Positions 4,543 to 53,340 of a stretch of DNA of 64,000 nt are shown here, piece after piece; positions within the stretch are counted from its first letter, which is position 1; every line of letters begins with the position of its first letter. The stretch covers positions 1 through 64,000 of the forward strand of contig NZ_JAAIIH010000013.1 in NCBI RefSeq assembly GCF_012932365.1, written 5' to 3'. The stretch is from Bifidobacterium moraviense (GTDB taxonomy: Bacteria > Actinomycetota > Actinomycetes > Actinomycetales > Bifidobacteriaceae). The notes beneath the pieces are model-generated. The model did not search any database and was not told where the DNA came from. It saw only the letters and a program-made list of their open reading frames with translations. The position numbers were made by a program, and so were the translations under genes.

Positions 4543-4638
4543 GGGGCGGTCCGGCGTTGCTGCGTCCCGGCGACGGCTGCCGCCGCGGGCGCGCAACGGC
4601 CCGTTCGTTCGCTGCGATGCGCCCGTCTGCCGTGTGCC

Positions 4639-4807
4639 GCATCCGATCCGCTCATTCCGTGCGCGCGGAATCATGGAATGAGCAGATCCGATGCCTGAGG
4701 GGGCTCAAATCGGTTGTCCGGCATCGGATCTGCTCATTGTGTGGTTGATTGGCATCCGATCCGCTCATTCCATGCGTGTGAGGTCACGGAATGAGCGGAT
4801 CCGATGC
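4639..4807. repeat. Cluster of inverted repeats built on GCATC(C/G)GATC(C/T)GCTCATTCC
   Basis: Five copies of a 18-20-bp word alternate in orientation: 4639-4657, 4675-4694 (inverted), 4721-4738, 4752-4771 and 4788-4807 (inverted). Adjacent copies can pair into two or three alternative hairpins. The cluster lies between the GH2 stop and the symporter start, both on the minus strand, so it could act as a terminator, attenuator or RNA-stabilising element. A REP-type repeat is another possibility. Confidence 0.75.
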
Positions 4808-4919
4808 GGGGCGGCCGTTGCGTGACGGCCATCGCGCATTCGTCACGCGCATTCGTCACGCGCATCCGTCGCGCGTACCGCCGTCGCGTATGCGCGATCG
4901 CGTCATCGCGCGCCGCGCA

Positions 4920-9246: not shown

Positions 9247-9276
9247 CCGGCGCCCGCGCTCGCGTCCGCGTCCGTT

Positions 9277-9855
9277 GATCGCAACGTTGCGGTGATCGGC
9301 CATGTTGTGGGCGTGCGGGTGACGCTTCGGTGGTCGCTGATCGCAATGTTGCGATGATCGACCATGTTGGGAGCGTGCGGGTGGTGCCTTGATGGTCGTT
9401 GGCCGCAATGCTGTGATGATCGGCCATGTTGGGAAGGTTCGGATGGTGCTTCGGTGGTCGCTGATCGCAACGTTGCGATGTTCGGCCAAATTGGAGCGGT
9501 TCGGATGACTCCCCGGTGGTCGTTGGCCGCAATGCTGTAATGATCGACCAAATTGGGAAGGTTCGGATGGTGCTTCGGTGGTCGCTGATCGCAATGTTGC
9601 GATGTTCGGCCAAGTTGGAGGTGTGTGGGTAGCGCTTCGGTGGTCGCTGATCGCAACGTTGCGATGATCGACCATGTTGGGGGCGTGCGGGTGGTGCCTT
9701 GATGGTCGTTGGCCGCAACGTTGTGATGATCGACCAAATTGGAGCGGTTCGGATGACTCCCCGGTGGTCGTTTACCGCAACGTTGCGGTGATCGGCCATG
9801 TTGTGGGCGCGCGGGTGACGCTTCGGTGGTCGCTGATCGCAATGTTGCGACGATG
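9277..9855. repeat. 62-bp tandem array, ten palindromic cores
   Basis: Cores of the type GATCGCAACGTTGCGATGATC start at 9277, 9339, 9401, 9463, 9525, 9587, 9649, 9711, 9773 and 9835; every step is exactly 62 bp. The best copies contain the perfect 14-bp palindrome TCGCAACGTTGCGA; the copies with GGCCGCAA or TTACCGCAA are degenerate. The ~40-bp linkers fall into about six types that recur out of order (two near-identical copies of three types). The same core and the same 62-bp step occur at 48783-48858 and 53204-53340. Confidence 0.9.
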
Positions 9856-38618: not shown

Positions 38619-38839
38619 GGGTATCTGCATAGTCGGGGTGATTTTCCGAGGTCTGCTGGCAGATATCTGCGGAGTCAGGGTGCCTCGGAGACCGATACCC
38701 CGGATATCGGCGGAACGGGGTCGTTGCAATGACGCCATTTCTCGGGTGTCGTCACCGTCCGTTTCCCCGTCGAGGCACCCTGACTCCGCAGATACCTGCC
38801 GACGGAAGGCGAAAAGTACCCCTGACTATGCAGATACCC
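38619..38839. repeat. 221-bp nested palindromic element, copy 1
   Basis: The outer arms GGGTATCTGCATAGTCGGGG and its inverse (ending CTATGCAGATACCC) stand at the two ends. Inner arms GCAGATATCTGCGGAGTCAG and its near-inverse stand inside. All four arms share the word GTATCTGC(A/G)NAGTC. About 90 bp in the middle are less conserved between copies. Copy 2 is at 44049-44268 and a deleted copy 3 at 52953-53044. Confidence 0.85.
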
Positions 38840-39264
38840 TCGTCGGCGCATGGCCCGGACGTGCGATTGTGTGGAAAACGTGAACTCGGGCATAGTTAAT
38901 TCAATGAGTGAACGAAGTATGCTATGGTGGGAACCGTTCGGAATCGGGGAAACGGTCCGGGCCGGCGGTGCGGAGCCGCACGGCGCGGAACTCAGGCTGC
39001 GAACCCGCATTCCGGCGCATAACCAACCACATCATCAGCGCGGCCGCTATCGCCGTGTGCGTCACGGTTGGACGCATGCGTCTCGACTCGGTCGAAGAAG
39101 CACCTGGGGTGCCGGCAAGGATGTCGGCATGCTGCAGGGCGGATCGCGCGAACATCACAGTCCAATGCAACGCAAGGGAAGTCGTCGCGTCGCCTCGTCG
39201 CGGCACGGCGGCCGCCGCGACGTCGAAGCCGACGGCGCGGACGAAGTGAAGGGAAAGACACACG

Positions 39265-40593
39265 ATGTTGAAGCAGCATCTGCGCAAGGCCATGGCGGTC
39301 GCGGCGGCCGCGGCGGCGGTATTCGGCATGGGGGCCTGCGGCGGCGGATCCGCCTCCGGCGACGCCAACCATCTGGTGATCACCTGGTGGGGCAACCAGC
39401 AGCGCAACGACCGCACCAACAAGATCAACGAGATGTTCGAACAGCAGAACGAGGGCGTGACCGTGGACGGCCAGTTCTCGGAGATGAGCGACTACTTCCA
39501 GAAGCTCTCCACCTCCGCCGCCGGCGGCCACCTGCCCGACGTGATGCAGACCGGTCTGGGCTACCTCGACCAGTATGAGCAGAACGGCCTGCTGCTCGAC
39601 CTCAAGCCGTACATCGACGACGGCACGATCGACGTGAGCGACGTGGACCCGAACATCATCGAGTCGGTCACACGCGACGACGGCGCCGTGTACGCCATCA
39701 CCAACGCCATGGCCGCCCCGGCGCTCATCTACAACAAGACGCTGCTCGACTCCGCCGGCATCACCGTGCCCGAGCGCCCCACCGTGGCTCAGTTCCTCGA
39801 CATCTGCCGTCAGGTGTACGCCAAGACCGGCGTGAAGACCAACTTCCGCTACTACGAGTACGGCGAGCTGCTCGAGTACTTCGTCAAGAAGGACGGCACC
39901 AAGCTCTACGACGTGAAGAACAACAAGCTCGGCGTCGACTCGCCCGAGCAGCTCGAGCAGTACTTCGACGTGTACGAGACCGGCATCAAGGAAGGCTGGC
40001 ACGTGGCCCCCGAGGTGTTCACCGACATCAAGGCCGGCTCCGTGGAGCAGGATCCGCTGGTCTACGGCTCCGATCCGTCCCGCCGCTCGTGGTGCACGTT
40101 CAAGTACACCTCCCAGTTCGGCGCCTACCAGACGCAGGCCAACAACAACGGCGACACGCTGGGGCTCGCCACCTGGCCGTCGGACAACGTGAAGAACTCC
40201 AACTACGTGTACCCAAGCCAGTTCTGGACCGTGGCCAAGACGTCCAAGAACCCCAAGCTGGCCGCGCAGTGGATCAACTTCTACACCAACAACGTGGAGG
40301 CCAACAAGGTCCTGCTGACCGACCGCGGCATCCCGATCAGCTCCAAGGTGGCCACCGCCATCGAGTCCGACCTGTCCGACTCGGACAAGGAGGCCGTGGA
40401 CTTCATCAACAACGTGGTCAAGCCGGAGAGCTCGCCGAACTCGCTGCAGACCCCGGCCGCCGCCACCGACGTGAACACCAAGGTGCTCCTGCCCATCGAG
40501 GAGAGCCTGCTGTACGGCAAGATCGACGCGAAGACCGCCGCGCAGCAGTACTTCGACCAGGCGAACGAGTACCTCGCCAAGGGCGCGAAGTGA
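39265..40593 (+). CDS. Solute-binding lipoprotein of a sugar ABC importer (CUT1 type), copy 3
   Basis: A protein of 442 residues with signal peptide ending GMGAC (lipidated C25) and LVITWWGNQQRNDRTNKIN at the mature N-terminus. It has YNKTLLDSAGITVPERPTV, KEGWHVAPEVFTDIKAGSVE and VLLTDRGIPISSKVATAI. It stands directly before the GH43 gene (197 bp, with a hairpin between), so it may import the substrate of the GH43/(alpha/alpha)6 pair. ATG follows GAAGGGAAAG. The region upstream carries a 221-bp palindromic repeat but not the TGCAA-N4-TGGCAA operator. Confidence 0.9.
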   Translation: MLKQHLRKAMAVAAAAAAVFGMGACGGGSASGDANHLVITWWGNQQRNDRTNKINEMFEQQNEGVTVDGQFSEMSDYFQKLSTSAAGGHLPDVMQTGLGYLDQYEQNGLLLDLKPYIDDGTIDVSDVDPNIIESVTRDDGAVYAITNAMAAPALIYNKTLLDSAGITVPERPTVAQFLDICRQVYAKTGVKTNFRYYEYGELLEYFVKKDGTKLYDVKNNKLGVDSPEQLEQYFDVYETGIKEGWHVAPEVFTDIKAGSVEQDPLVYGSDPSRRSWCTFKYTSQFGAYQTQANNNGDTLGLATWPSDNVKNSNYVYPSQFWTVAKTSKNPKLAAQWINFYTNNVEANKVLLTDRGIPISSKVATAIESDLSDSDKEAVDFINNVVKPESSPNSLQTPAAATDVNTKVLLPIEESLLYGKIDAKTAAQQYFDQANEYLAKGAK

Positions 40594-40644
40594 CGCGCCG
40601 CACGACGTGCGCGAGCCGCGACGCGCCGTCGGAGCGGTGATCCC

Positions 40645-40680
40645 GAGGCCCGGTTCCCTCCCGCGCGGGAACCGGGCCTC
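40645..40680 (+). terminator. 14-bp perfect hairpin between binding protein 3 and GH43
   Basis: GAGGCCCGGTTCCC (40645-40658) pairs with GGGAACCGGGCCTC (40667-40680). There is no U-tract, so partial termination or mRNA protection of the binding-protein message is plausible. Confidence 0.6.
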
Positions 40681-40789
40681 GCCCGCATCCGCGTGCCATC
40701 GGGACGGCAGGCATCGGCACGGAGAGACCACGCAGGCAGACCGCGCAGAGAGACCACGCATACAGACCGCACAGGGGGCAACCGGCATC

Positions 40790-42466
40790 ATGTCCGCACA
40801 GACACCCGACGATCCCGTCATCGTCAATCCGATCCTCCGGGGCTTCAACCCGGATCCGAACATCGTCTTCGACGGCGAGCGCTACCTCATCGCCGTGTCC
40901 ACCTTCGAATGGATGCCCGCCGTGCGCATCTACTCGTCCACGGACCTCGTGCGCTGGCGCTACGAGACGTCCGCGCTGGGCGCGCCCGGGTCGCTGGACC
41001 TGTCCGGCAACGGCGACAACTGCTCGGTGTGGGCGCCGTCGATGACCTACCGCAACGGCGTGTACCACCTCATCTACACCGACGTCAAGGCGTTCCGCGG
41101 CCCCTTCGCCGACCAGAACAACTACGTCGTCACCGCGCGGGACATCCACGGGCCGTGGAGCGAACCGGCGTACGTGAACGGCTCCGGATTCGATCCCTCG
41201 CTGTTCTTCGACGACGACGGCCGCCTCTACGTGGTCAACGCGCTGTGGGACTGGCGCGTGGAGACCAAGAACAAGTCCGACGGCATCGCGCTGACCGAGC
41301 TCGACCCGTCGACCTTTGCGCCCGTGGGCGAGCCGGTCAGGATCTACGCCGGCACCGAGGCGCGCATGACCGAGGCGCCGCAGCTCTACAAGCGCGACGG
41401 CTGGTACTACCTCATGACCGCCGAGGGCGGCACCGGGCTCGGGCATCAGGTGACGGTGGCGCGGTCGCGCGCGGTGACCGGCCCGTACGAGACCGACCCC
41501 GCCACGCCGCTGCTCACCTCCAGCCGCAACCCGGAGCTGGACCTGCAGTGCTCCGGGCATGCCTCGCTGGTGGAGACTCCCGACGGCGAGTGGTATCTGG
41601 CGCACCTGTCCACGCGCCCGCTGTCCGGCAACCACCCGATCCTGGGGCGCGAGACCGCGCTGCAGCGCGTGGAATGGACCGACGACGGCTGGCTGCGGCT
41701 CGCGGGCGGGGGATATCTGCCCAGGGACGTGGTGCCCGCGCCCAGAGCCGCGCGGACGTCGGGCGCGGCGCCGGCCGCCGAATCCCGCGCCTTCCGCGAC
41801 CCGCTCACGCAGGGCCCGCTCGACTTCGCCCGCTGGAACACGCTGCGCGCGCTGCCCGACCGTTCCTGGCTCACCTTCTCCGAGCGGGGCATGACGATCC
41901 GCGGCGGCATGTCGCCCCGGTCGGACTTCGACCAGCACGTGGTGGGCACCCGTCAGACCGACTTCGCCGTCCGCGCCGGGGTGACCATGGACTACGCGCC
42001 CACCAACCTGTTCCAGATGGCCGGGCTCATGCTCTACCTCAACACCGGCCGCTACCTGTTCATGGCGGTGATGCGGGACGGCGGGCGCACCGTGGCGCGC
42101 CTGATCGGCTGCGAGGCCGGTGACCGCACGCCGCTGCTGTGGGATCCGGTGCCGGTGGAGGGGAGCACGTTCCGCCTCGGCGTGGACGTGGACCACGACC
42201 GTGCGACCTTCACCATCCGTGAGCGCGTCGGCGGCGGGGGAAGTGCCGGCGGCGACGCGGCCTGCGGCGCGCACGAGCCGTTCGGCGCCCCGCGCGTCGT
42301 GGCCTCCGACGTGGACGTCTCGTTCCTCTCGGTCGGCTTCACCGGCAACTTCATCGCCGTGGACTGCGTGGACATGAACCGCCGCAACGCCTCGGCCGCC
42401 ACATTCCGTGACTTCGTCTACGATCCGGACGAGATGTCCGTCTGCGGCAGAAAGGGCACGCTATGA
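40790..42466 (+). CDS. GH43-family glycoside hydrolase (beta-xylosidase/arabinofuranosidase type)
   Basis: A protein of 558 residues without signal peptide. The five-bladed propeller runs from NPILRGFNPDPNI to about residue 310; the three catalytic acids are D22 (base), D135 (GSGFDPSLF) and E195 (RMTEAPQLYK). A beta-sandwich (concanavalin-like, GH43_C2) domain with DFDQHVVGTRQTDFAVRAG follows. This architecture is common in enzymes releasing xylose or arabinose from oligosaccharides; galactosidase activity is known in other GH43 groups. ATG is preceded by AGGGGG. The next gene overlaps it by four bases (ATGA). Confidence 0.88.
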   Translation: MSAQTPDDPVIVNPILRGFNPDPNIVFDGERYLIAVSTFEWMPAVRIYSSTDLVRWRYETSALGAPGSLDLSGNGDNCSVWAPSMTYRNGVYHLIYTDVKAFRGPFADQNNYVVTARDIHGPWSEPAYVNGSGFDPSLFFDDDGRLYVVNALWDWRVETKNKSDGIALTELDPSTFAPVGEPVRIYAGTEARMTEAPQLYKRDGWYYLMTAEGGTGLGHQVTVARSRAVTGPYETDPATPLLTSSRNPELDLQCSGHASLVETPDGEWYLAHLSTRPLSGNHPILGRETALQRVEWTDDGWLRLAGGGYLPRDVVPAPRAARTSGAAPAAESRAFRDPLTQGPLDFARWNTLRALPDRSWLTFSERGMTIRGGMSPRSDFDQHVVGTRQTDFAVRAGVTMDYAPTNLFQMAGLMLYLNTGRYLFMAVMRDGGRTVARLIGCEAGDRTPLLWDPVPVEGSTFRLGVDVDHDRATFTIRERVGGGGSAGGDAACGAHEPFGAPRVVASDVDVSFLSVGFTGNFIAVDCVDMNRRNASAATFRDFVYDPDEMSVCGRKGTL

Positions 42467-43908
42467 GCAACGGCAGCAACGTCGGCAACGGCGGCATCGA
42501 CCTTGACGGCCACCGCACGTCGGTCACGTTCCACACCGCGAACGACCTGGAGGAGCGCCTGTTCCACGAGGCCGAGCGCAAGTGCCTCGCCAACGTGCGC
42601 GACTTCGCCGGGCGGGACGTGCTGGTGGAGGGCGCCGGCTACGAGAAGGTGTGGCTGGAGACGCAGCCGATGGGCGGCGAGATGTATGCCAGGCGCAACG
42701 TGGAGGTGGGGTTGAACAACCAGCTCATCTTCATGGACTGCCAGCGCGACGACGGCCGCCTGCCCGGGGCGATCGAACGGCTGGCGGACGGGTCGATCGA
42801 GCCGCAGTACCGCCAGTTCCAGGGCTTCTGCTTCGCCGAGCCGGCGCTCAACATGTACTATCTCACCGGCCGCAGCGACGACTACCTGCACCGCCTGTAC
42901 GACGTGCTGCGGCGCTTCGACGCCTACATGTGGGCCACGCGCGATTCGGACGGCGACGGATGCCTGGAGGCGTGGTGCCAGTACGACACCGGCGAGGACC
43001 ACGCGATGCGCTTCCGCGACGCCCCACTCAACTGGCCGGCCGCCGAGCCGCCGGAGGGCTACGCGGCGGTGCCCATCGCCTCCATGGACTTCATGGGCTA
43101 CTCCTACGCCTCGCGCGCCGTGCTGAGCCGCATCTGCCGCATTGCCGGGCATCTCGAGGAGTCCGTGGAGTGGCAGCGGCGCGCGGACGAGGTGCTCGCC
43201 CGGATGCGCGACTATCTGTGGGACGACGCGCGCGGCGCCTACTTCGACCGCGACCGCGAGCACCGTGTGATGCCCGAGCTCATCCACAACACGCTGCGCA
43301 CGATGTACTGGGGCGCCATCGCGCCCGACATGGCCGAACGGTTCGTGGACGAGCATCTCACCAACCCGGAGGAGTTCTGGACGCCGATGCCGCTGCCCAG
43401 CGTGGCCGCGAACGACCCGTTGTTCCGCAACGTGCCCACCAACAACTGGAGCGGGCAGGCCGAGGCGCTCACCTACCAGCGGGCCATCGCCGCGCTGGAA
43501 CGCTACGGCTACCAGCGACTGATCCCCCTGCTGGGGGAGCGGCTCATGCGCGCGATCGGGCCGGAATGCGTGTTCGTGCAGCAGTACGATCCGTTCACCG
43601 CCCGGCCATCCATCTGCGAGGGGCAGGGCGGCAGCGACGCCTACGGTCCCGCGATGCTCTCCGTGCTGGAATACTGCGCGTGCATGCACGGCGTGCGCAT
43701 CCAGGGCGAGCGCGTGCTCTGGGGATCGTACGGGGATGCGGCCTGCGAATACGAGCAGACGTGGGGCGAGCGCCGGTTCGCGCTGCGCAGCGACGGCACG
43801 TACGCGGAGGGGCTGGCGGACGGACGGCGCGTGTTCCGCGTGCCCGTGGGCACCCGCGTCGTCACCGACTACGAGGGGACGGTGATCCGCGCCGACTCCC
43901 TGCTGTGA
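42463..43908 (+). CDS. (alpha/alpha)6-barrel glycoside hydrolase, MGH1/GH63-like
   Basis: A protein of 481 residues. The pattern RRNVEVGLNNQLIFMDCQRD, FQGFCFAEPALNMYYL, RFDAYMWATRDSDGDGCLEAW and PTNNWSGQAEALTYQRAIAAL is that of the toroidal clan GH-G hydrolases (mannosylglycerate hydrolase MGH1, GH63, trehalase). D942-type acids cannot be assigned with certainty, but DSDGDG and the late CEGQGGSDAYGPAMLS segment are candidates. The start codon overlaps the GH43 stop (ATGA), so the two are translationally coupled and may act on one oligosaccharide. Substrate unknown. Confidence 0.7.
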   Translation: MSNGSNVGNGGIDLDGHRTSVTFHTANDLEERLFHEAERKCLANVRDFAGRDVLVEGAGYEKVWLETQPMGGEMYARRNVEVGLNNQLIFMDCQRDDGRLPGAIERLADGSIEPQYRQFQGFCFAEPALNMYYLTGRSDDYLHRLYDVLRRFDAYMWATRDSDGDGCLEAWCQYDTGEDHAMRFRDAPLNWPAAEPPEGYAAVPIASMDFMGYSYASRAVLSRICRIAGHLEESVEWQRRADEVLARMRDYLWDDARGAYFDRDREHRVMPELIHNTLRTMYWGAIAPDMAERFVDEHLTNPEEFWTPMPLPSVAANDPLFRNVPTNNWSGQAEALTYQRAIAALERYGYQRLIPLLGERLMRAIGPECVFVQQYDPFTARPSICEGQGGSDAYGPAMLSVLEYCACMHGVRIQGERVLWGSYGDAACEYEQTWGERRFALRSDGTYAEGLADGRRVFRVPVGTRVVTDYEGTVIRADSLL

Positions 43909-44048
43909 CCGCGCGGGGTCGGTTGTCGCGGCGCCGTCACGCCGCCGCTCGCCCGTGCGGCGTGTCCGTATGCGGCGCGGCGGCCCGTGGCACGGCGCGT
44001 GCGGGTCCCGGCTGGCCGTCCTGCCCGTTCGTACGCGAGTTGATCGTG

Positions 44049-44268
44049 GGGTATCTGCATAGTCGGGGTGATTTTCCGAGGTCTGCTGGCAGATATCTGC
44101 GGAGTCAGGGTGCCTTGGGACCCGATATCCCGGGTATCCGGGCAACGGGCTCGTTGCAATGACGCCGTTTTGTCGGCGCCGATGCGGACCGTTTCCCGCG
44201 CCAGACACCCTGACTCTGCAGATACCTGTCTGCAGACCGCCGAAAGTACCCCTGACTCTGCAGATACC
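44049..44268. repeat. 220-bp nested palindromic element, copy 2
   Basis: Ends and inner arms match copy 1 (38619-38839) closely, with the first 65 bp nearly identical. The middle part diverges. As with copy 1, the element is a few hundred bases before a binding-protein gene. Confidence 0.85.
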
Positions 44269-44386
44269 TCGTCCGTTACCTCGTCCGTGCGGCGACCGAA
44301 CGGGTCGCAATGCCTCATCGGGTGATGAATGACCGGTCCGCCGGGTCTTCGCATGGGCGGAGCTGGGGGCCTTCACCGAATCTCCA

Positions 44387-44401
44387 TGCAAACGCTGGCA
44401 A
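44387..44401 (+). promoter_or_regulatory. Operator candidate TGCAA-ACGC-TGGCAA (binding protein 4)
   Basis: Identical over 18 bp to the site before binding protein 2 (36722). It lies 10 bp upstream of the 14-bp inverted repeat at 44412. Confidence 0.65.
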
Positions 44402-44411
44402 CGCACCACGA

Positions 44412-44450
44412 AACCTACTTAGTTAATACTCTAAACTAACTAAGTAGGTT
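44412..44450. promoter_or_regulatory. Perfect 14-bp inverted repeat AACCTACTTAGTTA / TAACTAAGTAGGTT
   Basis: Arms at 44412-44425 and 44437-44450 with an AT-rich 11-bp centre containing TACTCT. The half-word CTACTTAGTT recurs before binding protein 5 at 49018-49027. It is probably a regulator site at or over the promoter; no U-tract is present. Confidence 0.6.
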
Positions 44451-44584
44451 CGGAACGGCGCTCCGGGGACGGAAGACCGGGGCGAGGCAAACCGTCCGGA
44501 CCGGCGAACGCGGCGACGCAGCCGCGACGGGAGACGCCCACGGCGGGCGTCCCGTGGAATCGCATACAGGGAAAGGTGTTACCG

Positions 44585-45895
44585 ATGAAGGCAATGCAGA
44601 AGGCCCTCGCCCTCGTGGCGGCGGGCGCCACCGTGATGTCGATGGCGGCGTGCGGCGGGTCGAACGACTCGTCCGCCGCGAGCAACAAGCTCACCATCTC
44701 CTGGTGGGGCAACCAGCAGCGCAACGACCGCACCAAGCAGGTGAACGACATGTTCTCCGCCGCCAACGACGGCGTGAGCGTGGACGGCCAGTTCTCCGAG
44801 TTCTCCGACTACTGGCAGAAGCTCTCCACCAACGCGGCCGGCAAGTCGCTGCCGGACGTGATGCAGATGGACATGGGCTACATCCAGCAGTACGTGGACA
44901 ACGGCCTGCTCTACGACCTGTCCGACTTCGTGAAGAACGGCACGATCGACCTGTCCGATGTGGACCCGAACGTGGCCGCCGCCGGCCAGTTCGACGGCAA
45001 GACCTACGCCGTCGTCAACGCCACCAACGCCCCGGCGCTCATCTACGACAAGACGCTGCTCGACGGCGCCGGCATCACCGTGCCGGACACCATGACCGTG
45101 GACGACTTCATCTCCATCTCCAAGCAGGTCTACGAGAAGACCGGCGTCAAGACCAACATCCGCTACTACGAGGCCTCCGAGTACATGGAATACCTGCTGC
45201 GCGCCGACGGCAAGACGCTGCTCGAGAAGGGCAAGCTCGGCGTGGACTCCGCCTCCGACCTCGAACCGTACTTCCAGATGTACGAGCAGGGCATCAAGGA
45301 AGGCTGGCACCTGGCCCCGGAGGTGTTCGCCGACCTCAAGATCAGCTCCGTGGAGCAGGATCCGCTGGTCTACGGCACCGCGGCCGACCGCATGAGCTGG
45401 TGCACGTTCAAGTACTCCTCGCAGTTCGGCGCCTACCAGAAGGCCGCCACCAACGGCCACGAGCTCGCCATGGCCGCCTGGCCGTCCGACGACGTGAAGA
45501 AGTCCAACTACGTCAAGCCCAGCCAGTACTGGGTGATCTCCAAGACCAGCAAGAACCCCGAGCTGGCCGCCAAGTGGATCAACTTCTACACCAACGACGT
45601 GGACGCCAACAAGATCCTCCTGACCGACCGCGGCCTGCCGATCAGCACCAAGGTGCTCTCCGCCATCAAGTCCGACCTGTCCGACGCGGACCTCGCCGGC
45701 CTCGACTTCATGGAGAACGTGGTCACCCCGAACTCCAGCACCATCAACCCGCCGAGCCCCGCCGGCTCCTCTGAGATCAACTCCAAGGTGCTGCCGCAGA
45801 TCGAGGAGTCGCTCTGCTACGGCAAGATCGACGCCGCCGCGGCCGCCCAGCAGTTCTTCGACGAGGCGAACGACGCGCTCGCCAAGGCCAAGTGA
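44585..45895 (+). CDS. Solute-binding lipoprotein of a sugar ABC importer (CUT1 type), copy 4
   Basis: A protein of 436 residues, lipobox SMAAC (C23), mature N-terminus LTISWWGNQQRNDRTKQVN. It shares with copies 2 and 3 the segments KTNIRYYEASEYMEYLLRA-like, SVEQDPLVYGTAADRMSWC and LLTDRGLPISTKVL. ATG 44585 lies 8 nt from AAAGG; GTG 44576 would overlap that ribosome site. No permease nearby. It has two candidate operators upstream. Downstream a 16-bp hairpin separates it from the beta-helix enzyme. Confidence 0.92.
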   Translation: MKAMQKALALVAAGATVMSMAACGGSNDSSAASNKLTISWWGNQQRNDRTKQVNDMFSAANDGVSVDGQFSEFSDYWQKLSTNAAGKSLPDVMQMDMGYIQQYVDNGLLYDLSDFVKNGTIDLSDVDPNVAAAGQFDGKTYAVVNATNAPALIYDKTLLDGAGITVPDTMTVDDFISISKQVYEKTGVKTNIRYYEASEYMEYLLRADGKTLLEKGKLGVDSASDLEPYFQMYEQGIKEGWHLAPEVFADLKISSVEQDPLVYGTAADRMSWCTFKYSSQFGAYQKAATNGHELAMAAWPSDDVKKSNYVKPSQYWVISKTSKNPELAAKWINFYTNDVDANKILLTDRGLPISTKVLSAIKSDLSDADLAGLDFMENVVTPNSSTINPPSPAGSSEINSKVLPQIEESLCYGKIDAAAAAQQFFDEANDALAKAK

Positions 45896-45990
45896 CGCCG
45901 GGGCCGGCGGCGAATGACGGCACCCGGCCGGCGGATCGGCCGGTGAGCCGACCGGCGGCGCTGGAACGGCGCGTCGTCTGACGGCCCGGG

Positions 45991-46029
45991 GAAGATGTGC
46001 GGATGGATCAGGCCCATCCGCACATCTTC
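45991..46029 (+). terminator. 16-bp perfect hairpin after binding protein 4
   Basis: GAAGATGTGCGGATGG (45991-46006) pairs with CCATCCGCACATCTTC (46014-46029), loop of 7. No U-tract follows. As after copy 3, this may let the binding-protein message outlast the downstream hydrolase message. Confidence 0.65.
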
Positions 46030-46121
46030 GCGTATCCGCCCCATAACCACCGCCGCGATGCGGACGGCGGATAACGTACAGCGGACGGCGGTCCGCACGA
46101 ACATCGTCAGGGAGGACGAAC

Positions 46122-48749
46122 ATGGCAGGCATTCCCCGCGCCACCGGCTGCAGGGTCACGAAGGAGGCGCTCGCCAACGCGGCGCGCGTCGAGGACATGG
46201 TCTCGATCGAGGCGTTCGGCGCCGAGCCGGGCGGCGACCCGCAGACCAACACGCTCGCGGTCAACCGCGCCATCGCGCGGACGGCGGCGGACGGCGGCGG
46301 CACCGTGCGCGTGCCGGCGGGCCGCTTCGCCGTCTACACGGTGATGCTGGCCAGCGGCGTCAACCTGTACCTCGACGAGGGTGCCGTGCTGGCCGCCGCG
46401 CGCCACGAGGGCCACGACCACGCCGCGCTGTACGACGTGACCGGCCCGGTGGCGGGCGCGATGGGCGGCGGCAACTACGCCGAGCCGGAGGTCAACCGCT
46501 ACGTGGGCCTGCAGGACCACGCGCATACCTACCTGCGCAACAGCTTCGTGCTCGGCGTGGGGCTGCGCGACGTGATGGTCTACGGCCCGGGCCGCTTCGA
46601 CGGCAGCTGGACGGATCCCGTCACCGGCATGCGCCAGGAGGTGCTCACCTACGCCGACCCGGAGGAGCCCGAGCGCCGCGACCGGCCGGGGCATCGCAAC
46701 GGCTGGTGGGGCGACAAGGGCATCGCGCTGGTGGACTGCGAGCACGTGGTGCTGCAGGGCTTCGAGATGCTGCTGTGCGGCCACTTCGCGATCATCGCCA
46801 CCGGCTGCCGCGACCTGCTGGTGGACGGCGTGACCGTGGACTCGCAGCGCGACGGCATCGACGTGGACGGCTGCGAGGACGTGACCGTGCGCGGCTCGCT
46901 CTTCAACACGCTGCACGACGACGCGCTCGTCATCAAGGCGTCCTACGGCGCGCAGCGGTTCGCGCACACCCGCAACGTGCTGGTGGAGGACTGCACGGTG
47001 TCCGGCTACGACGCGGGGTCGGTGCTCGCCGGCGCGCCCGCCACGGACCGTCAGGTGGCGGAGGGCGGCTGCGGGCCGATGGGCCGCGTGAAGCTCGGCA
47101 CCGAGTCCACCTGCGGCTACAGCCTGGTGACCGTCCGCAACGTGCGCTTCGAGCGCTGCATGGGCCTCGCCATAGAGGCGGTGGACGGCTCCGACGTGTA
47201 CGACGTCGTGGCTGAGCATCTGACGATGGACGGCGTGACCACCGCGCCGATCTACATCCGCTGTGGCGACCGCGGCCGCTATCCGGTCACCGGCGTGCAC
47301 GGGCTCGACGGCGGCCAGTGGGTGCGCCCGCAGCATGACGTGCGCCTCGATGCCGCCCAGTGGGTGCTGCCCGACGGCGAGGGCTACGAGCGGCATCCGG
47401 CCAGACGATATGCGCCGGCCTACCGTCGCCGCGCGGTGAGCGTGGACGGCTTCGCGTCCTTCCCCGTGGTGGACGGCCCCGACCCGGTGCACGTCAACCC
47501 CGCCAACGTGCACGTGGACGCGGACGGCGCCGCGCATCCGATGGTCTACGACGATGCGGAAGGCCGCTACGTGCCGGACATGGCCGTGACGCTGGATGCG
47601 CGCGGGGTGGCCGCGCGCGGCAACGCGTTCGGCTGCGAGCGGATCGCCCGCTGCCGCAACATCGAGATCAGCGACGTGCGGGCGCGCGACGTGGATCCGC
47701 GCTATCCGATCATCATCGCCGGCCTCGTGGATGCCAGGGCGCAGAACGTCACGCTGCGCGACATCGACGTTGAGTACCGCGGCGGCCTGACCATGCGCGA
47801 CGCCGTGGAGCAGCGCATGGTGCGCACGCCGTGGACGTACCGTGAGTCCGACATGGTGCCCGACGAGCAGCTCGTCTCTTGGCTCGTCAACCCCGGCCAT
47901 GCGCACAACGAGACGCTGCTGCCGCGCGTGAGCTGGGATCCGGACGCGGCGGACGGCGCGGGCGCGTGGCGCGACGACCCGTGCAACGTGCCCGAGGGTG
48001 TGAGCAACTATCCGGATCCGGACGAGTTCGGCATCCTGCCCGCGTGGGGCCTGTATGCGCGCCACGTGGAGGGACTGGACGTGCAGGGGCTCTCCGTGCG
48101 CGCGCTGACGCCGGAGGGGCGCTATGCCATGGTGCTCGACGACGTGTCCGGCGGCGTGCTGCGTGACGTCGCCGCGGCCGGCGGCAGGCTCGACGGTGAG
48201 GGCTCCGTGCCCGACGTGGCCGTGGTGCGCCATCATCGCAAGCGTCCCACCGGCTACGAGTATCTGCCGGACGAGCCGTACCGCGTGACCGACGTGACCG
48301 ACGTGACGCTGCCGCGCGGCGCCGTGGTGGAGTGCGTGGACGTGACCGCGCCCGAGCCGGGCACGCCCGCCGATTCGCTGTACGCGCTGCCCACGGTGGC
48401 CACGCGGGAGAACGGGTTCGCCTACTCCGCGCTGCGCTCGCCGTCCGAGGGCGGCGATCTGCCCGCCACGGTGTACATGCCGTATCTGACGGCCGTGCCC
48501 GCCGCGCTGCGCCGCCTGACCGTGGGCGTGCGCGCCGCGCTGCACCTGTCCGGACGCGACCCGATCGATCCGCGCGGACTCGAGCCGCCGACCGTCGAGA
48601 TGCCGAATCCGCCCGAGGGCGCCTCGTTCGACGGCTCCGAGTTCGTCTGGACGCCGGCCCCGGAGCAGGAGGGCGCGCACGACGTGGAGGTGCTGCTGCG
48701 TGCGCACGGGCGTACGGCGCGCGGCGTGCTGCGCCTGACGGTGGCGTGA
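46122..48749 (+). CDS. Large beta-helix, GH28-like uronide hydrolase
   Basis: A protein of 875 residues, about twice a usual GH28, with no signal peptide. The N-terminal part (SIEAFGAEPGGDPQTNTLAV) is the pectate-lyase/polygalacturonase helix start. The active-site region has SQRDGIDVDGC and TLHDDALVIKASYG, matching the GH28 acidic pairs; GRVKLGTESTCGYS follows. After about residue 400 comes a long insertion with second-helix repeats (ARGNAFGCERIARCRNIEIS), and the last 130 residues look like a beta-sandwich (SFDGSEFVWTPAPEQEGAHD). Probably an exo-acting enzyme on acidic oligosaccharides. GGGAGGAC precedes the ATG. Confidence 0.75.
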   Translation: MAGIPRATGCRVTKEALANAARVEDMVSIEAFGAEPGGDPQTNTLAVNRAIARTAADGGGTVRVPAGRFAVYTVMLASGVNLYLDEGAVLAAARHEGHDHAALYDVTGPVAGAMGGGNYAEPEVNRYVGLQDHAHTYLRNSFVLGVGLRDVMVYGPGRFDGSWTDPVTGMRQEVLTYADPEEPERRDRPGHRNGWWGDKGIALVDCEHVVLQGFEMLLCGHFAIIATGCRDLLVDGVTVDSQRDGIDVDGCEDVTVRGSLFNTLHDDALVIKASYGAQRFAHTRNVLVEDCTVSGYDAGSVLAGAPATDRQVAEGGCGPMGRVKLGTESTCGYSLVTVRNVRFERCMGLAIEAVDGSDVYDVVAEHLTMDGVTTAPIYIRCGDRGRYPVTGVHGLDGGQWVRPQHDVRLDAAQWVLPDGEGYERHPARRYAPAYRRRAVSVDGFASFPVVDGPDPVHVNPANVHVDADGAAHPMVYDDAEGRYVPDMAVTLDARGVAARGNAFGCERIARCRNIEISDVRARDVDPRYPIIIAGLVDARAQNVTLRDIDVEYRGGLTMRDAVEQRMVRTPWTYRESDMVPDEQLVSWLVNPGHAHNETLLPRVSWDPDAADGAGAWRDDPCNVPEGVSNYPDPDEFGILPAWGLYARHVEGLDVQGLSVRALTPEGRYAMVLDDVSGGVLRDVAAAGGRLDGEGSVPDVAVVRHHRKRPTGYEYLPDEPYRVTDVTDVTLPRGAVVECVDVTAPEPGTPADSLYALPTVATRENGFAYSALRSPSEGGDLPATVYMPYLTAVPAALRRLTVGVRAALHLSGRDPIDPRGLEPPTVEMPNPPEGASFDGSEFVWTPAPEQEGAHDVEVLLRAHGRTARGVLRLTVA

Positions 48750-48780
48750 CGGTGACGTGACGTCGGGACGCGGGTGACGT

Positions 48781-48858
48781 GGCAACGTTGCGATGATCGG
48801 CCGGATTGGCGTCCTCTCGGGGGTCCTTCGATGGTCGTTCGTCGCAACGTTGCGACGG
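48781..48858. repeat. 62-bp repeat family, two cores
   Basis: CAACGTTGCGATGATCGG starts at 48783 and the second core GTCGCAACGTTGCGAC has its CAACG at 48845, exactly 62 bp on. The linker ends TTCGATGGTCGTTCG, as in linkers of the array at 9277. Confidence 0.85.
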
Positions 48859-48934
48859 CGTGACGTGTCGTGCCGCAGCGCGCCGCGATGTCCGTGACGA
48901 TCATCCGTGATCGTTACATCGTTGTTGTGAACAT

Positions 48935-48967
48935 TCGGCCGGATGCGGTGGCGCATCCGGCCGATTT
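48935..48967 (+). terminator. Intrinsic terminator
   Basis: TCGGCCGGATGCG (48935-48947) pairs with CGCATCCGGCCGA (48952-48964) over 13 bp, then TTT. It lies before the promoter of binding protein 5. Confidence 0.75.
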
Positions 48968-49193
48968 CGTCAACGAAACGCAGTTTCTCTGCAAAATAAG
49001 CTAATAATTATCCACAACTACTTAGTTCATGCGTGTAACATAACAGTCGTCGGTCGATGTGGAAGACGGAGTCGCGGAAGCGGAATGTCCCCTCCCGTCC
49101 GCATCGCGGCCGACGCCACGACCGGGCCGCAAGGAAGCGTCCCGGACCGCCGCGAGGAAGCGGCGGATGCACACATGGAACAAGGAGAGAACC

Positions 49194-50498
49194 ATGCACG
49201 GGCATATCCAGATCAGGAAGGCCATCGCCATCGCGGCCGCAGCGGCCGCCGTCGTAGCAGTGGGAGCGTGCGGATCGAGCTCCGGCTCCGGGCAGGACGC
49301 GGGCAAGCTCACCGTCGCGTGGTGGGGCAACCAGCAGCGCAACGAACGCCAGCAGAAGGTGGACGACATGTTCGCCCAGCAGAACGGCATCACCATCGAC
49401 GGCCAGTACTCGCAGTTCGCCGACTACTGGCAGAAGCTCGCCACCAACGCCGCCGGCCGCCAGATGCCGGACGTCATCGCCATGGACTTCGCCTACCTCA
49501 ACCAGTACATCGAGAACGGCCTGCTCGAGCCGCTGGACGACTACGTCTCCTCCGGCAAGCTGAACCTGAAGGACGTGGACGACAACACCGTCTCCGCCGG
49601 CCGCGGCGACGACGGCAAGCTGTACGCGCTGCCCAGCGGCGTGAACGCCCCCGCGGTGATCTACAACAAGACCCTGCTCGACTCGCTCGGCATCACGATC
49701 CCGGACAACTGGACGCTCGACGACTTCCAGAACATCGCCCGCGAGGTGTACGCCAAGACCGGCGTGAGGACCGCGTACGGCTACCTCGACAACACGTACA
49801 ACCTCGAGTACAACCTGCGCGCGCACGACGTCGAGCTCTTCAAGGACGGCAAGCTCGGCACCGAGGACACCACCTACTACGCCGAGTACTTCAAGGTCTT
49901 CGAGAACGGCTACAAGGAAGGCTGGCATCTGCCCGCCGAGCTGTACACCGAGATCACGCTCAACGCCATCGAGCAGGATCCGCTGGTCTCCTTCACCTCC
50001 ACCGACCGCCAGTCGTGGTGCTCGCTGATGTTCTCCAGCCAGGTCACCTCGTTCGCCAGCGTCAACGACTCCAACGAGCTCGCCCTCGCGCCGTGGCCCA
50101 GCGCCAACGTCACCAAGTCCAACTACGTGCACCCGAGCATGTACTGGGCCGTCACCAAGTCGTCCAAGAACAAGGACATGGCCGTCAAGTTCGTGGACTT
50201 CTACACCAACAACACCGACGCGGCGGACATCATGCTCACCGACCGCGGCATCCCGGTGTCCAGCGCGATCATCGACCACATCTCGCCCAAGCTCACCAAG
50301 TACGAGAAGGTGGCCGCCGACTTCCAGAAGGCGACCGTGGCGAACTCCTCGCCGATCAACCCGCCCGCGCCGGCCAAGGCCGCCGAGATCAACTCCCGCG
50401 TGATCAAGGAGGTCGAGGAGCAGATCATGTACGGCAAGATGGACGCCCAGCAGGCCGCCGCCGACTTCGTCAGGCAGTCCGCCGAGGTCCTGGGCTGA
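49194..50498 (+). CDS. Solute-binding lipoprotein of a sugar ABC importer (CUT1 type), copy 5
   Basis: A protein of 434 residues with signal ending AVGAC (C26) and LTVAWWGNQQRNERQQKVD. It resembles copy 1 most (LLEPLDDYVSSGK, DSLGITIPDNWTLDDFQNIA, KVFENGYKEGWHL). ATG follows AAGGAGAG. Next on the strand is a GRP-type sugar transporter, the only importer gene close to any of the five binding proteins, but of a different class. Preceded by an AT-rich promoter with the CTACTTAGTT half-site. Confidence 0.92.
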   Translation: MHGHIQIRKAIAIAAAAAAVVAVGACGSSSGSGQDAGKLTVAWWGNQQRNERQQKVDDMFAQQNGITIDGQYSQFADYWQKLATNAAGRQMPDVIAMDFAYLNQYIENGLLEPLDDYVSSGKLNLKDVDDNTVSAGRGDDGKLYALPSGVNAPAVIYNKTLLDSLGITIPDNWTLDDFQNIAREVYAKTGVRTAYGYLDNTYNLEYNLRAHDVELFKDGKLGTEDTTYYAEYFKVFENGYKEGWHLPAELYTEITLNAIEQDPLVSFTSTDRQSWCSLMFSSQVTSFASVNDSNELALAPWPSANVTKSNYVHPSMYWAVTKSSKNKDMAVKFVDFYTNNTDAADIMLTDRGIPVSSAIIDHISPKLTKYEKVAADFQKATVANSSPINPPAPAKAAEINSRVIKEVEEQIMYGKMDAQQAAADFVRQSAEVLG

Positions 50499-50733
50499 GT
50501 CCTGGGCTGTCCGATCCCGCGAGGGGATGGTCGCCGCGTGATCGCATGATAGTCGCCGTTCGGGTCCGCGCATACTCAGGCGGCCGGGCCCGGACGGCGA
50601 TCGCATGTCCGGGGCGGACGCGCGCCGTCCGTGTGCCGTCCGTGGCCATCGCGCGCCGGTTCCCGGCAGTCTCCGGCCCGGTCCGCCATCGCCGCGATCG
50701 ATCATCCCCGATCCCACAGGAGTTCCCGACGAG

Positions 50734-51591
50734 ATGAACATCGTCATCGGCCTGGCCCCCGCCGTGTTCTGGGGCATCCTGCCGCTGTTCCTGCGCAAGG
50801 TGGGCGGCGGCTCGTTCCGCAGCCAGCTCGTGGGCACCGCCCTCGGCATCCTCATCGTGGCCGCCGCCATCCACGTGGCCAGCGGCTACAGCGCGCCCGC
50901 CGCCGTGTGGGTGCCGTTCCTGCTGTCCGGCTTCTGCTGGAGCTTCGGGCAGGCCGGGCAGTACCACTGCTACGAGCGGCTCGGCGTGAGCGTCACCATG
51001 CCCGCGTCCACTGCGCTGCAAGTGATCGGCAACAGCCTCATCGGCGGCCTGTTCTTCCACGAATGGGACGGCATGCACGACATCGCGCTGAGCCTCGGAG
51101 CCGTGGTGCTCATCGTCATCGGCGTGTTCGCGGCCAACGGCCGGGGCGCGTCCGGAGGCGGTTCGGCGGTGGGCGCGGCGCGTGCGCGCGACTGGGCGGT
51201 CCTCGTGCTGTCCACCGCCGGATACTGGCTGTACTCCGCGTTTCCGCTCACCGTGACCGTCGACTCCAAGCTCGAGGGCTTCCTGCCGCAGGCGCTCGGC
51301 ATGCTCGCCTCCGCGGTGCTCATCGGGCTCACCCATGCGCGCGACATCGTGGACGGCGCGAGCATGCGCAACATCGGCGGCGGGCTCATCTTCTCAGTCG
51401 CCGCCGCCACCTACCTCATGTCGATGACGCTCAACGGCATGGTGAACGCCTTCGTGCTTTCCCAGCTCAACGTCGTCGTCTCCACGCTCACCGGCGCGAT
51501 CGTGCTCAGGGAGACCCCGCGCGAGAAGATCCCCGGCATCGCGATCGGGCTGGCGATCCTCATGGCGGGCGCCACGCTCATGGTGCTCTAG
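50734..51591 (+). CDS. GRP-family sugar transporter (GlcU/RbsU/RhaT-like)
   Basis: An integral membrane protein of 285 residues with about ten hydrophobic segments, beginning NIVIGLAPAVFWGILPLFL. Conserved features include FCWSFGQAGQYHCYERLGVS in the third to fourth helix, STALQVIGNSLIGGLFFHEW, and the mirrored SQLNVVVSTLTGAIVLRETP near the end, typical of the drug/metabolite superfamily's sugar branch. Such carriers import monosaccharides such as glucose, ribose or rhamnose by ion symport. CAGGAG lies 12 nt before the ATG, a long spacing. It sits between a binding protein and GH28 and may recover released monosaccharide. Confidence 0.85.
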   Translation: MNIVIGLAPAVFWGILPLFLRKVGGGSFRSQLVGTALGILIVAAAIHVASGYSAPAAVWVPFLLSGFCWSFGQAGQYHCYERLGVSVTMPASTALQVIGNSLIGGLFFHEWDGMHDIALSLGAVVLIVIGVFAANGRGASGGGSAVGAARARDWAVLVLSTAGYWLYSAFPLTVTVDSKLEGFLPQALGMLASAVLIGLTHARDIVDGASMRNIGGGLIFSVAAATYLMSMTLNGMVNAFVLSQLNVVVSTLTGAIVLRETPREKIPGIAIGLAILMAGATLMVL

Positions 51592-51655
51592 CGCCCGGCG
51601 CCCCGTTCGCGGCGCTCCGCAAGATTCCCCGACGTCCAAGGAAGGACCGATTCCC

Positions 51656-52918
51656 ATGACCGACTTCATCTACGCCAATCCCGTGTCCGACGACCCGTCC
51701 GGCTACGCCGCCGGCCTGCAGGCGCTGCTCGACCGCTGCTCCGGCGAAGGCGGCGGCACCGTGTCCGTCACCGCCCCCGGCGTGCACCTGTGCGACGGAC
51801 TGCGCCTGCGCAGCCGCGTGACGCTCGAGCTCGCCGAGGGCGTCACGCTCAGGGCCAGCGGCGACGAATCCACGTACGAGCACCGCCCCGGCCCGTTCGA
51901 GCTCAACGCCAACGAGACGCCCATCTGCGCGTTCGTCCACGGCAAGGGGCTCACCGGCGCGGCCATCCGCGGCAAAGGCGTGATCGACGGCAACTACGAG
52001 CGCTTCGTCCTGCCCGGGCAGGGCCCCGAGGTGCAGCACATCGCCACGTTCGCGTATCCGCGTCCCATGACCGTCTACCTCGAGGACTGCGAGGACGCCG
52101 TCATCGAGGGCGTGACCGTGGGCAACTCGCCGTTCTGGACCATCCATCTGGTCGGCTGCCGCAACACGGTGGTGCGCGACGTGGCCATCCGCAACGAGAT
52201 GCGCATGCCCAACACCGACGGCATCGACGTGGACCGCTGCGACAACACGCTCATCGAGCGCTGCGACATCGTCACCGGCGACGACGGCGTGTGCCCCAAG
52301 TGCACCGAGGAGACCGCGCGCTACGGCGGCTGTTCCAACCTCACGGTGCGCGACTGCCGGATCGTCACCCGCAGCTCCGCCGTCAAGCTCGGCTCGTCCA
52401 GCTTCGCCGACTTCGAGAACATGACGTTCGAGCGCCTCACGATCCGCGACTCGAACCGCGGCCTGGCGTTCCAGCTGCGCGACCCGGGCTCGGCGCGCAA
52501 CATCGTGTTCCGCGACGTGACGATCACCACGGCCACGTTCTCGCGCGAATGGTGGGGCTCCGCCGAGGCGATCTACCTGACGATCCTGCCGCGCACCGAC
52601 GCCACGGACATGACCGGACGCGTGATCGAACACGTGCGCTTCGAGCGGGTGACCGGCACCTGCGGGCTGCCGGTGGTGGCCGTGGGCCATGCGCCCGGCG
52701 CGATCCGCGACGTGACGCTCGACGGCGTGGAACTCGAGGCGAGCGGCGGCGCGGGCGGCGACGGCGATGCGGGCGGTGCCGGCGCGGACGGCGTCTCGTA
52801 CGACGTGGACGTGCGCCCGTGGCGCGGCGGCGACGCCAAGGTGCCGGTGCCCGCCGCGGACATGCTGGGCGACGGTCCCGCGTTCCGCAGGGAGGCGTGC
52901 CGCATCCGCTTCCGGTGA
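51656..52918 (+). CDS. GH28-family enzyme, atypical active site
   Basis: A protein of 420 residues without signal peptide. It has the beta-helix repeats and GH28 motifs PNTDGIDVD and TGDDGVCPK, then VTRSSAVKLGSSS where classical members have GHG. FQLRDPGSARNIVF and a Gly/Ala/Asp-rich insertion (about residues 365-378) follow. Compared with the enzyme at 31683 it shares the missing histidine. Cytoplasmic action on short galacturonides is likely. ATG follows AAGGAAGGA; it is 64 bp after the GRP transporter, so probably in one operon with it. Confidence 0.83.
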   Translation: MTDFIYANPVSDDPSGYAAGLQALLDRCSGEGGGTVSVTAPGVHLCDGLRLRSRVTLELAEGVTLRASGDESTYEHRPGPFELNANETPICAFVHGKGLTGAAIRGKGVIDGNYERFVLPGQGPEVQHIATFAYPRPMTVYLEDCEDAVIEGVTVGNSPFWTIHLVGCRNTVVRDVAIRNEMRMPNTDGIDVDRCDNTLIERCDIVTGDDGVCPKCTEETARYGGCSNLTVRDCRIVTRSSAVKLGSSSFADFENMTFERLTIRDSNRGLAFQLRDPGSARNIVFRDVTITTATFSREWWGSAEAIYLTILPRTDATDMTGRVIEHVRFERVTGTCGLPVVAVGHAPGAIRDVTLDGVELEASGGAGGDGDAGGAGADGVSYDVDVRPWRGGDAKVPVPAADMLGDGPAFRREACRIRFR

Positions 52919-52952
52919 CCGCCGCGGCATGGCATTTGCGTGCCGGTTGGGC

Positions 52953-53044
52953 GGGTATCTGCAGAGTCGGGGTGATTTTCCGAGGTCTGCGGGCAGATAT
53001 CTGCCGACGGAAGGCGAAAAGTACCCCTGACTCTGCAGATACCC
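52953..53044. repeat. Nested palindromic element, 92-bp deleted copy 3
   Basis: The left end (GGGTATCTGCAGAGTCGGGG, then the segment up to GCAGATATCTGC) is joined directly to the right end (CGACGGAAGGCGAAAAGTAC up to GATACCC) of the full element. The junction falls in the shared inner word GCAGATATCTGC/GCAGATACCTGC, so one recombination between the inner arms explains it. Confidence 0.85.
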
Positions 53045-53199
53045 CGTTCGGGTGGTGCGCGGACGCGGTGTGATGCGCCTCGCCGCCGACGAGACGCCCC
53101 GTCCGGGCGGTCGGTGGTCGGTCTGCGGGCGGGCTCGATGCCGCGTGCGACGGAACGGCAGGCCGGCGGTCCGCCGACGATTTGTCCCTACGGTCATTC

Positions 53200-53340
53200 G
53201 CGGCAGCGTTGCGGCCGACGGCCGGATTGCGGGGCCATGCATGGGCTTTCGGTGGCCATCCGTCGCAACGTTGCGATGATGAGCCAAGTTGTGGTTCTTT
53301 CGGAGACTCTTCGTTGGTCGTCTGTCGCAACGTTGCGATG
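53200..53340. repeat. 62-bp repeat family, three cores
   Basis: Cores begin at 53204 (CAGCGTTGCGG, degenerate), 53266 and 53328 (CAACGTTGCGATGA), again with steps of exactly 62 bp. Confidence 0.85.

Follow-up and report, generated by a model that had tools for sequence, protein, structure and literature searches.

The 64-kb window (the whole stretch of DNA that was analysed) contains three members of an apparently undescribed family of intergenic elements, in which four copies of one 18-bp word form two direct pairs, the words of each pair lying 42 bp apart and the pairs facing each other over about 200 bp. Members of this family occur throughout the host genome and in many other Bifidobacterium species, where the words, their spacing and their helical phase are conserved. 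We lean towards the reading that the elements are binding platforms for one putative protein, which were dispersed in trans and have been retained by selection.

Elements of the analysed window

The first element (38619..38839) is situated between two solute-binding-protein genes. Its outer left word (38622..38639) and inner left word (38664..38681), exactly 42 bp apart, are on the forward strand, and its inner right (38777..38794) and outer right (38819..38836) words, likewise 42 bp apart, are on the reverse strand; a central dyad motif, TTGCAA (38724..38729), adjoins the symmetry centre. The gap between inner words, hereafter D, is 114 bp in this copy and also in the second one (44049..44268), with forward words at 44052..44069 and 44094..44111 and reverse words at 44207..44224 and 44249..44266, paired at 42 bp in the same way. 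The two copies match at 71 of 75 positions in their left 75 bp, and the right arm of the second is unrelated to that of the first outside the words. The third element (52953..53044) is a short form with the middle deleted, in which a single word on either side (52956..52973, forward; 53024..53041, reverse) flanks the 12-bp palindrome GCAGATATCTGC (52993..53004).

The first-pass annotation had placed all three elements correctly and had described the full ones as four arms of one word forming two nested inverted repeats, as confirmed here by their two forward and two reverse words. It had also proposed that the third copy lost its middle by the joining of its inner arms, and the junction is indeed the palindrome of the fused inner arms. 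Because this copy is 96.7% identical to the first across the deletion, with one junction, the full element is supported as the ancestral state. Allowing up to two mismatches, the word GGTATCTGCNNAGTC has 11 matches in the window versus 0.79 expected from shuffling, ten of them being arms of the three elements. Called genes overlap none of the elements, in agreement with the suggested lack of coding capacity. Segmental duplication of the gene cluster was considered as the origin of the window copies and rejected, as their flanks are unrelated; copies 1 and 3 resemble each other over about 17 bp of the left flank.

Two other palindromic families were observed in the same genome. A 62-bp repeat containing the palindrome ATCGCAACGTTGCGAT is arrayed head to tail about ten times at positions 9262-9853 of the window, with further copies at 48778-48855 and 53199-53338 and 55 matches across the genome, some in short arrays. 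The third palindromic intergenic family, with 59-nt inverted arms containing the word GCATCCGATCCGCTCATTCC and a 55-nt gap (4637-4695 / 4751-4809), has 28 genome matches, including tandem arrangements at an offset of about 114 bp.

Distribution in the host genome and the genus

The genome-wide search for the arm word revealed 27 copies on many of the 39 contigs of the host assembly, 23 with four words and four being internally deleted short forms; one of the 23 carries a further two left words in tandem. The sequences around the copies are unrelated to one another. Consequently, the initial placement of all copies in the second catabolic cluster holds inside the window and not for the genome as a whole, and copies are not restricted to these loci either in the genome or in the genus. 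A half-element model built from sequence only detected the element in 41 of 105 good Bifidobacterium genomes (about 40%), with numbers from 0 to more than 20 per genome and several genomes exceeding 20; these counts are lower bounds, since at most 46 halves were scored per genome. In about 60% of the species the element was absent or unrecognisable.

The pattern of two words at 42 bp, looked for in 84,980 species genomes, matched B. simiarum (many copies), B. avesanii, B. vespertilionis, B. cebidarum, B. colobi, B. felsineum and B. pluvialisilvae, and no credible element was found in these genomes outside Bifidobacterium. Matches outside the genus were rejected as tandem repeats or chance, and DnaA-box clusters fitting one relaxed pattern were discarded. 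The element was not found in plasmid and phage collections or viral contigs. The possibility of identity with a described repeat family, raised in the first-pass annotation, found no support, as the curated RNA families of Rfam gave no match and no description of the family was found among open-licence papers.

Helical phasing and the hairpin alternative

Across 98 elements, D falls into the classes 91-94, 102-105, 113-115 and 123-125 bp with none between, corresponding to a period of 10.65 bp (R = 0.90; the maximum of 500 uniform simulations was 0.34). In the host genome alone the phasing is R = 0.94. Some elements share D by descent, and as a control for this the data were collapsed to 31 distinct species-by-D values, which gave R = 0.87 and p < 0.0005 (0 of 2000 simulations). 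Extra tandem words lengthen the element by exactly 42 or 84 bp. In the short forms the word distance is 69 bp in three and 65 bp in one, which does not clearly fit the D series, and these may be decaying deletion products. The 10.65-bp period implies that the element is recognised in its duplex form and in helical register, as multi-site duplex DNA would be. Separated sites in helical phase, with a periodicity of about 10.5-11 bp, are known from the looped multi-operator systems lac, gal and ara. The putative sites of the Bifidobacterium element resemble these in their phasing; the element differs in being present in dozens of copies by unrelated housekeeping genes, mostly 3' of genes and not at promoters.

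Element centres also form classes that are associated with D: GTATGnnCGTTG/CAACGnnCATAC occurs with D = 93 and AAACGGCTTGA/TCAAGCCGTTT in many elements with D = 104, and host centres carry GGAATTCCGCGG or TTGCAA. These motifs are perhaps a second binding site.

The palindrome could instead act as a long RNA or cruciform hairpin, for instance as a 3'-end structure, a terminator or an RNase III site, which we regard as improbable. The element folds far more strongly than shuffled sequences, whether taken as RNA (-140.9 kcal/mol, z -12.4) or as single-stranded DNA (z -12.3), it lies mostly 3' of genes, and its centre is often an inverted repeat of its own. Furthermore, outer left and outer right words covary within elements, as do inner left and inner right words, and the NN dinucleotide of the outer words matches in 16 of 27 elements versus 8.1 expected (p = 0.0005). 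However, such covariation of arms would also arise from template-switch correction of quasi-palindromes, pairing within elements is no higher than expected in the spacers (0.62 versus 0.61-0.63), Rfam holds no matching family, and the period of D fits duplex DNA and not an apical loop. The purely cruciform or RNA reading that had been offered at first is thus disfavoured by the phasing and by the spacers, covariation of the outer words notwithstanding. It should be mentioned that the NN dinucleotide takes almost only the values AT, AG and GG, and is unusually changeable and matched between the outer arms; in each of two pairs of source and recent copy (38619 and 52953 of the window; L032 14692 and L035 2990) the differences lie mainly there.

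Conservation, species dialects and shared positions

Comparison of the 23 four-word host copies showed identities of 0.91-0.95 in the words and 0.61 in both spacers and centre, with 0.53 for random sequence (shuffled centres); the information content is 1.76 bits per word position versus 1.05 in spacers. Judged by spacers and centres being near random and words being 91-95% identical, the host copies are old in every part but the words. The word has a dialect of its own in each species, namely TATCTGCNNAGTCAGGGG in the host, TATCTCCATTCTGNGGGC in B. simiarum, TATCTGCTTTGCAAGGGG in genome G092 and TATCTGCGTTACGAGGGG in G017, and words alone sufficed to place 65 of 71 copies in the correct genome, all six errors being within the pair G067/G105.

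All of 86 elements lie clear of called genes: 40 are located between tandem, 23 between convergent and seven between divergent genes, the rest being at locus edges. The intergenic inverted pairs in tens of copies characteristic of BIME/REP sequences are therefore present. Neighbouring genes are unrelated housekeeping genes that form no regulon. Positions bounded left and right by the same genes in two to five species number at least nine and include those at putP, trpS, glnB/glnD and cysS (orthology was judged by shared neighbours, and gene names come from reading of predicted proteins). For 13 species pairs at shared positions, words were 0.83 identical, spacers 0.56 and flanks 0.55, against 0.51 at random. 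At the orthologous putP, trpS and cysS positions, D shifts from 93 to 104/105 between G092 and G105 or G017. Each of the nine G017 elements lies beside a gene that also adjoins an element in some other species, and G089, a near relative of G017 (96%), has lost most of its element set.

A neutral, functionless old repeat, whose copies are similar merely through gene conversion, seems a very unlikely source of this pattern. Conversion does appear to operate in one instance, as G109 has two inverted elements 3.2 kb apart (L193, 2883-3090 and 6115-6325) that are 100% identical over about 202 bp, the identity extending into 5 and about 18 bp of flank; the outer flanks differ and an amidohydrolase gene lies between. 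Such a pair would be a product of gene conversion or a substrate for inversion, and suggests that conversion also homogenises some copies. The host copies, however, share the words alone and not spacers or centre, homologous conversion needs tracts longer than 18 bp, and the helical phase is preserved.

Dispersal and the mobile-element alternative

The main rival to the binding-platform reading is a selfish MITE of the IR/DR type, which also posits a trans-acting site-specific protein: the words would be sites of a putative transposase, the autonomous element would be lost or unsampled, and the phasing would reflect synapsis. We consider it possible, although unlikely. The elements are short, non-coding and multicopy, with inverted-repeat ends and subterminal repeats, as MITEs are; the 27 dispersed host copies have unrelated flanks, and copy number ranges from 0 to more than 20 between species. 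In addition, two of the short copies show 96.7% identity to a full copy that is unlinked or distant and has unrelated flanks: the one at 52953 of the window matches the full copy at 38619, 14 kb away, and one on contig C10 matches a full copy on C12, with all 44 spacer bases identical. Some dispersal, given this identity of about 97%, is therefore recent. The infB-rbfA copy of the host is also missing from sampled relatives, where the interval is shorter, holds no element and is not alignable.

Against this reading, no autonomous element with the same ends was found in the genus, 84,980-genome and viral scans, and the transposase with matching ends that the first-pass annotation had envisaged was not found either, be it of an autonomous element or of the RAYT type. 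Of the half-elements checked, 349 have a partner at about 200 bp; the 15 that lack one are short forms, decayed halves or lie at contig or locus edges. Copies about 3 kb apart in four species were examined as ends of an autonomous element and rejected, since the intervening segment is the amidohydrolase gene between putP and trpS. The scan of boundaries and lengths versus permuted flanks yielded no convincing excess of target duplications, in line with the initial impression. Element-free sites of G089 differ from G017 by other sequence or deletions, and are not clean empty sites. At some such slots (L249, L258) G089 holds other hairpin-like sequence where G017 has the element, in one case CTCCCCTTGTCAGGGGAGCTGGCGGCGAAGCCGACTGAGGGG. 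Finally, words remain intact at old orthologous positions with saturated flanks, unlike those of dead MITE copies. What stands of the initial MITE-like interpretation is thus a dispersed non-coding inverted-repeat family with two recent deleted copies; with neither autonomous partner, transposase nor target duplication, and with many positions conserved between species, words kept and flanks randomised, it does not behave as a dead MITE family.

A REP-RAYT-type REPIN or BIME, dependent for its mobility on a single-copy Y1 transposase, would be likewise compatible with intergenic inverted word pairs, vertical persistence and species-specific words, which resemble REPIN populations. This alternative is already largely refuted, and we give it hardly any credence: the transposase (Y1_Tnp, PF01797) is absent from the host genome and occurs in seven of 112 genus genomes, mostly those without the element, and the 18-bp words at 42-bp spacing are not 20-40-nt hairpins.

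A putative protein-bound platform

Words and phase have been kept at old positions, with dialects, and one sequence-specific protein binding on one face is therefore the best explanation. We infer that the four putative sites of about 18 bp (host consensus TATCTGCNNAGTCAGGGG) would be bound by one such protein encoded elsewhere. The direct pairs, 42 bp or four helical turns apart and facing each other over a centre that bears a dyad motif as well, would allow the putative protein to occupy all four duplex sites on one helix face and to hold about 200 bp in a loop or wrap. Copies would have dispersed in the past, and occasionally still do so, as non-autonomous units, in trans or by recombination, and selection on words and helical phase would then keep them in place between genes, mostly on the 3' side of a gene. 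As to the benefit, our preferred guess, given that the neighbours form no regulon, is that the elements act structurally or as insulators where genes end.

Several observations weigh against the binding platform. The absence from about 60% of species and the loss of most elements in G089 imply that the elements are dispensable. Moreover, outer words match within an element beyond expectation, an excess that protein-site selection alone would not predict, and the identical pair of G109 points to gene conversion in the homogenisation of some copies.

Relation to known repeats and significance

The closest known kinds are the REP/BIME/REPIN families and MITEs with paired end sites; the element lacks the RAYT of the former and the target duplication and autonomous partner of the latter. 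REP/BIME sequences and REPINs are short intergenic palindromic families of enterobacteria and pseudomonads (PMC2817692, PMC3116915, PMC8049555). The Bifidobacterium element is similar to them in its tens of copies, inverted word pairs, long vertical persistence and presumed trans-acting protein, and differs by four 18-bp words at a fixed 42-bp spacing, centres phased at 10.65 bp and no Y1 transposase.

Transposase sites of the IR/DR type are found in Sleeping Beauty-type ends and in the multi-site ends of Tn7-like elements. Inverted ends, each with two direct sites (putative here), and non-coding, dispersed copies are shared with MITEs of this type; the words kept at old orthologous positions set the element apart, as does the want of an autonomous relative or target duplication. 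Genus-limited intergenic repeats of 100-200 bp are also represented by the Correia elements of Neisseria and the pneumococcal BOX and RUP. Like these, the element is limited to one genus, intergenic, found in internally deleted forms and capable of gaining tandem sub-units (as BOX B); its sequence is unrelated, it has no TA duplication, and it shows helical phasing and species dialects.

The usual account of interspersed repeats in bacteria is that they are dead mobile elements or RNA hairpins. The Bifidobacterium repeat conserves only short words, exact spacing and helical phase, and has in addition dialects and shared positions. We tentatively propose a genus-specific nucleoprotein element, with four sites on one face, a putative bridging protein and a word that changes in concert species-wide, which might form a node, structural or insulating in function, where genes end. 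A sequence-specific bridging protein is accordingly predicted to exist in Bifidobacterium and would be catchable by pull-down, and the natural series of spacing variants offers a test of loop geometry in vivo.
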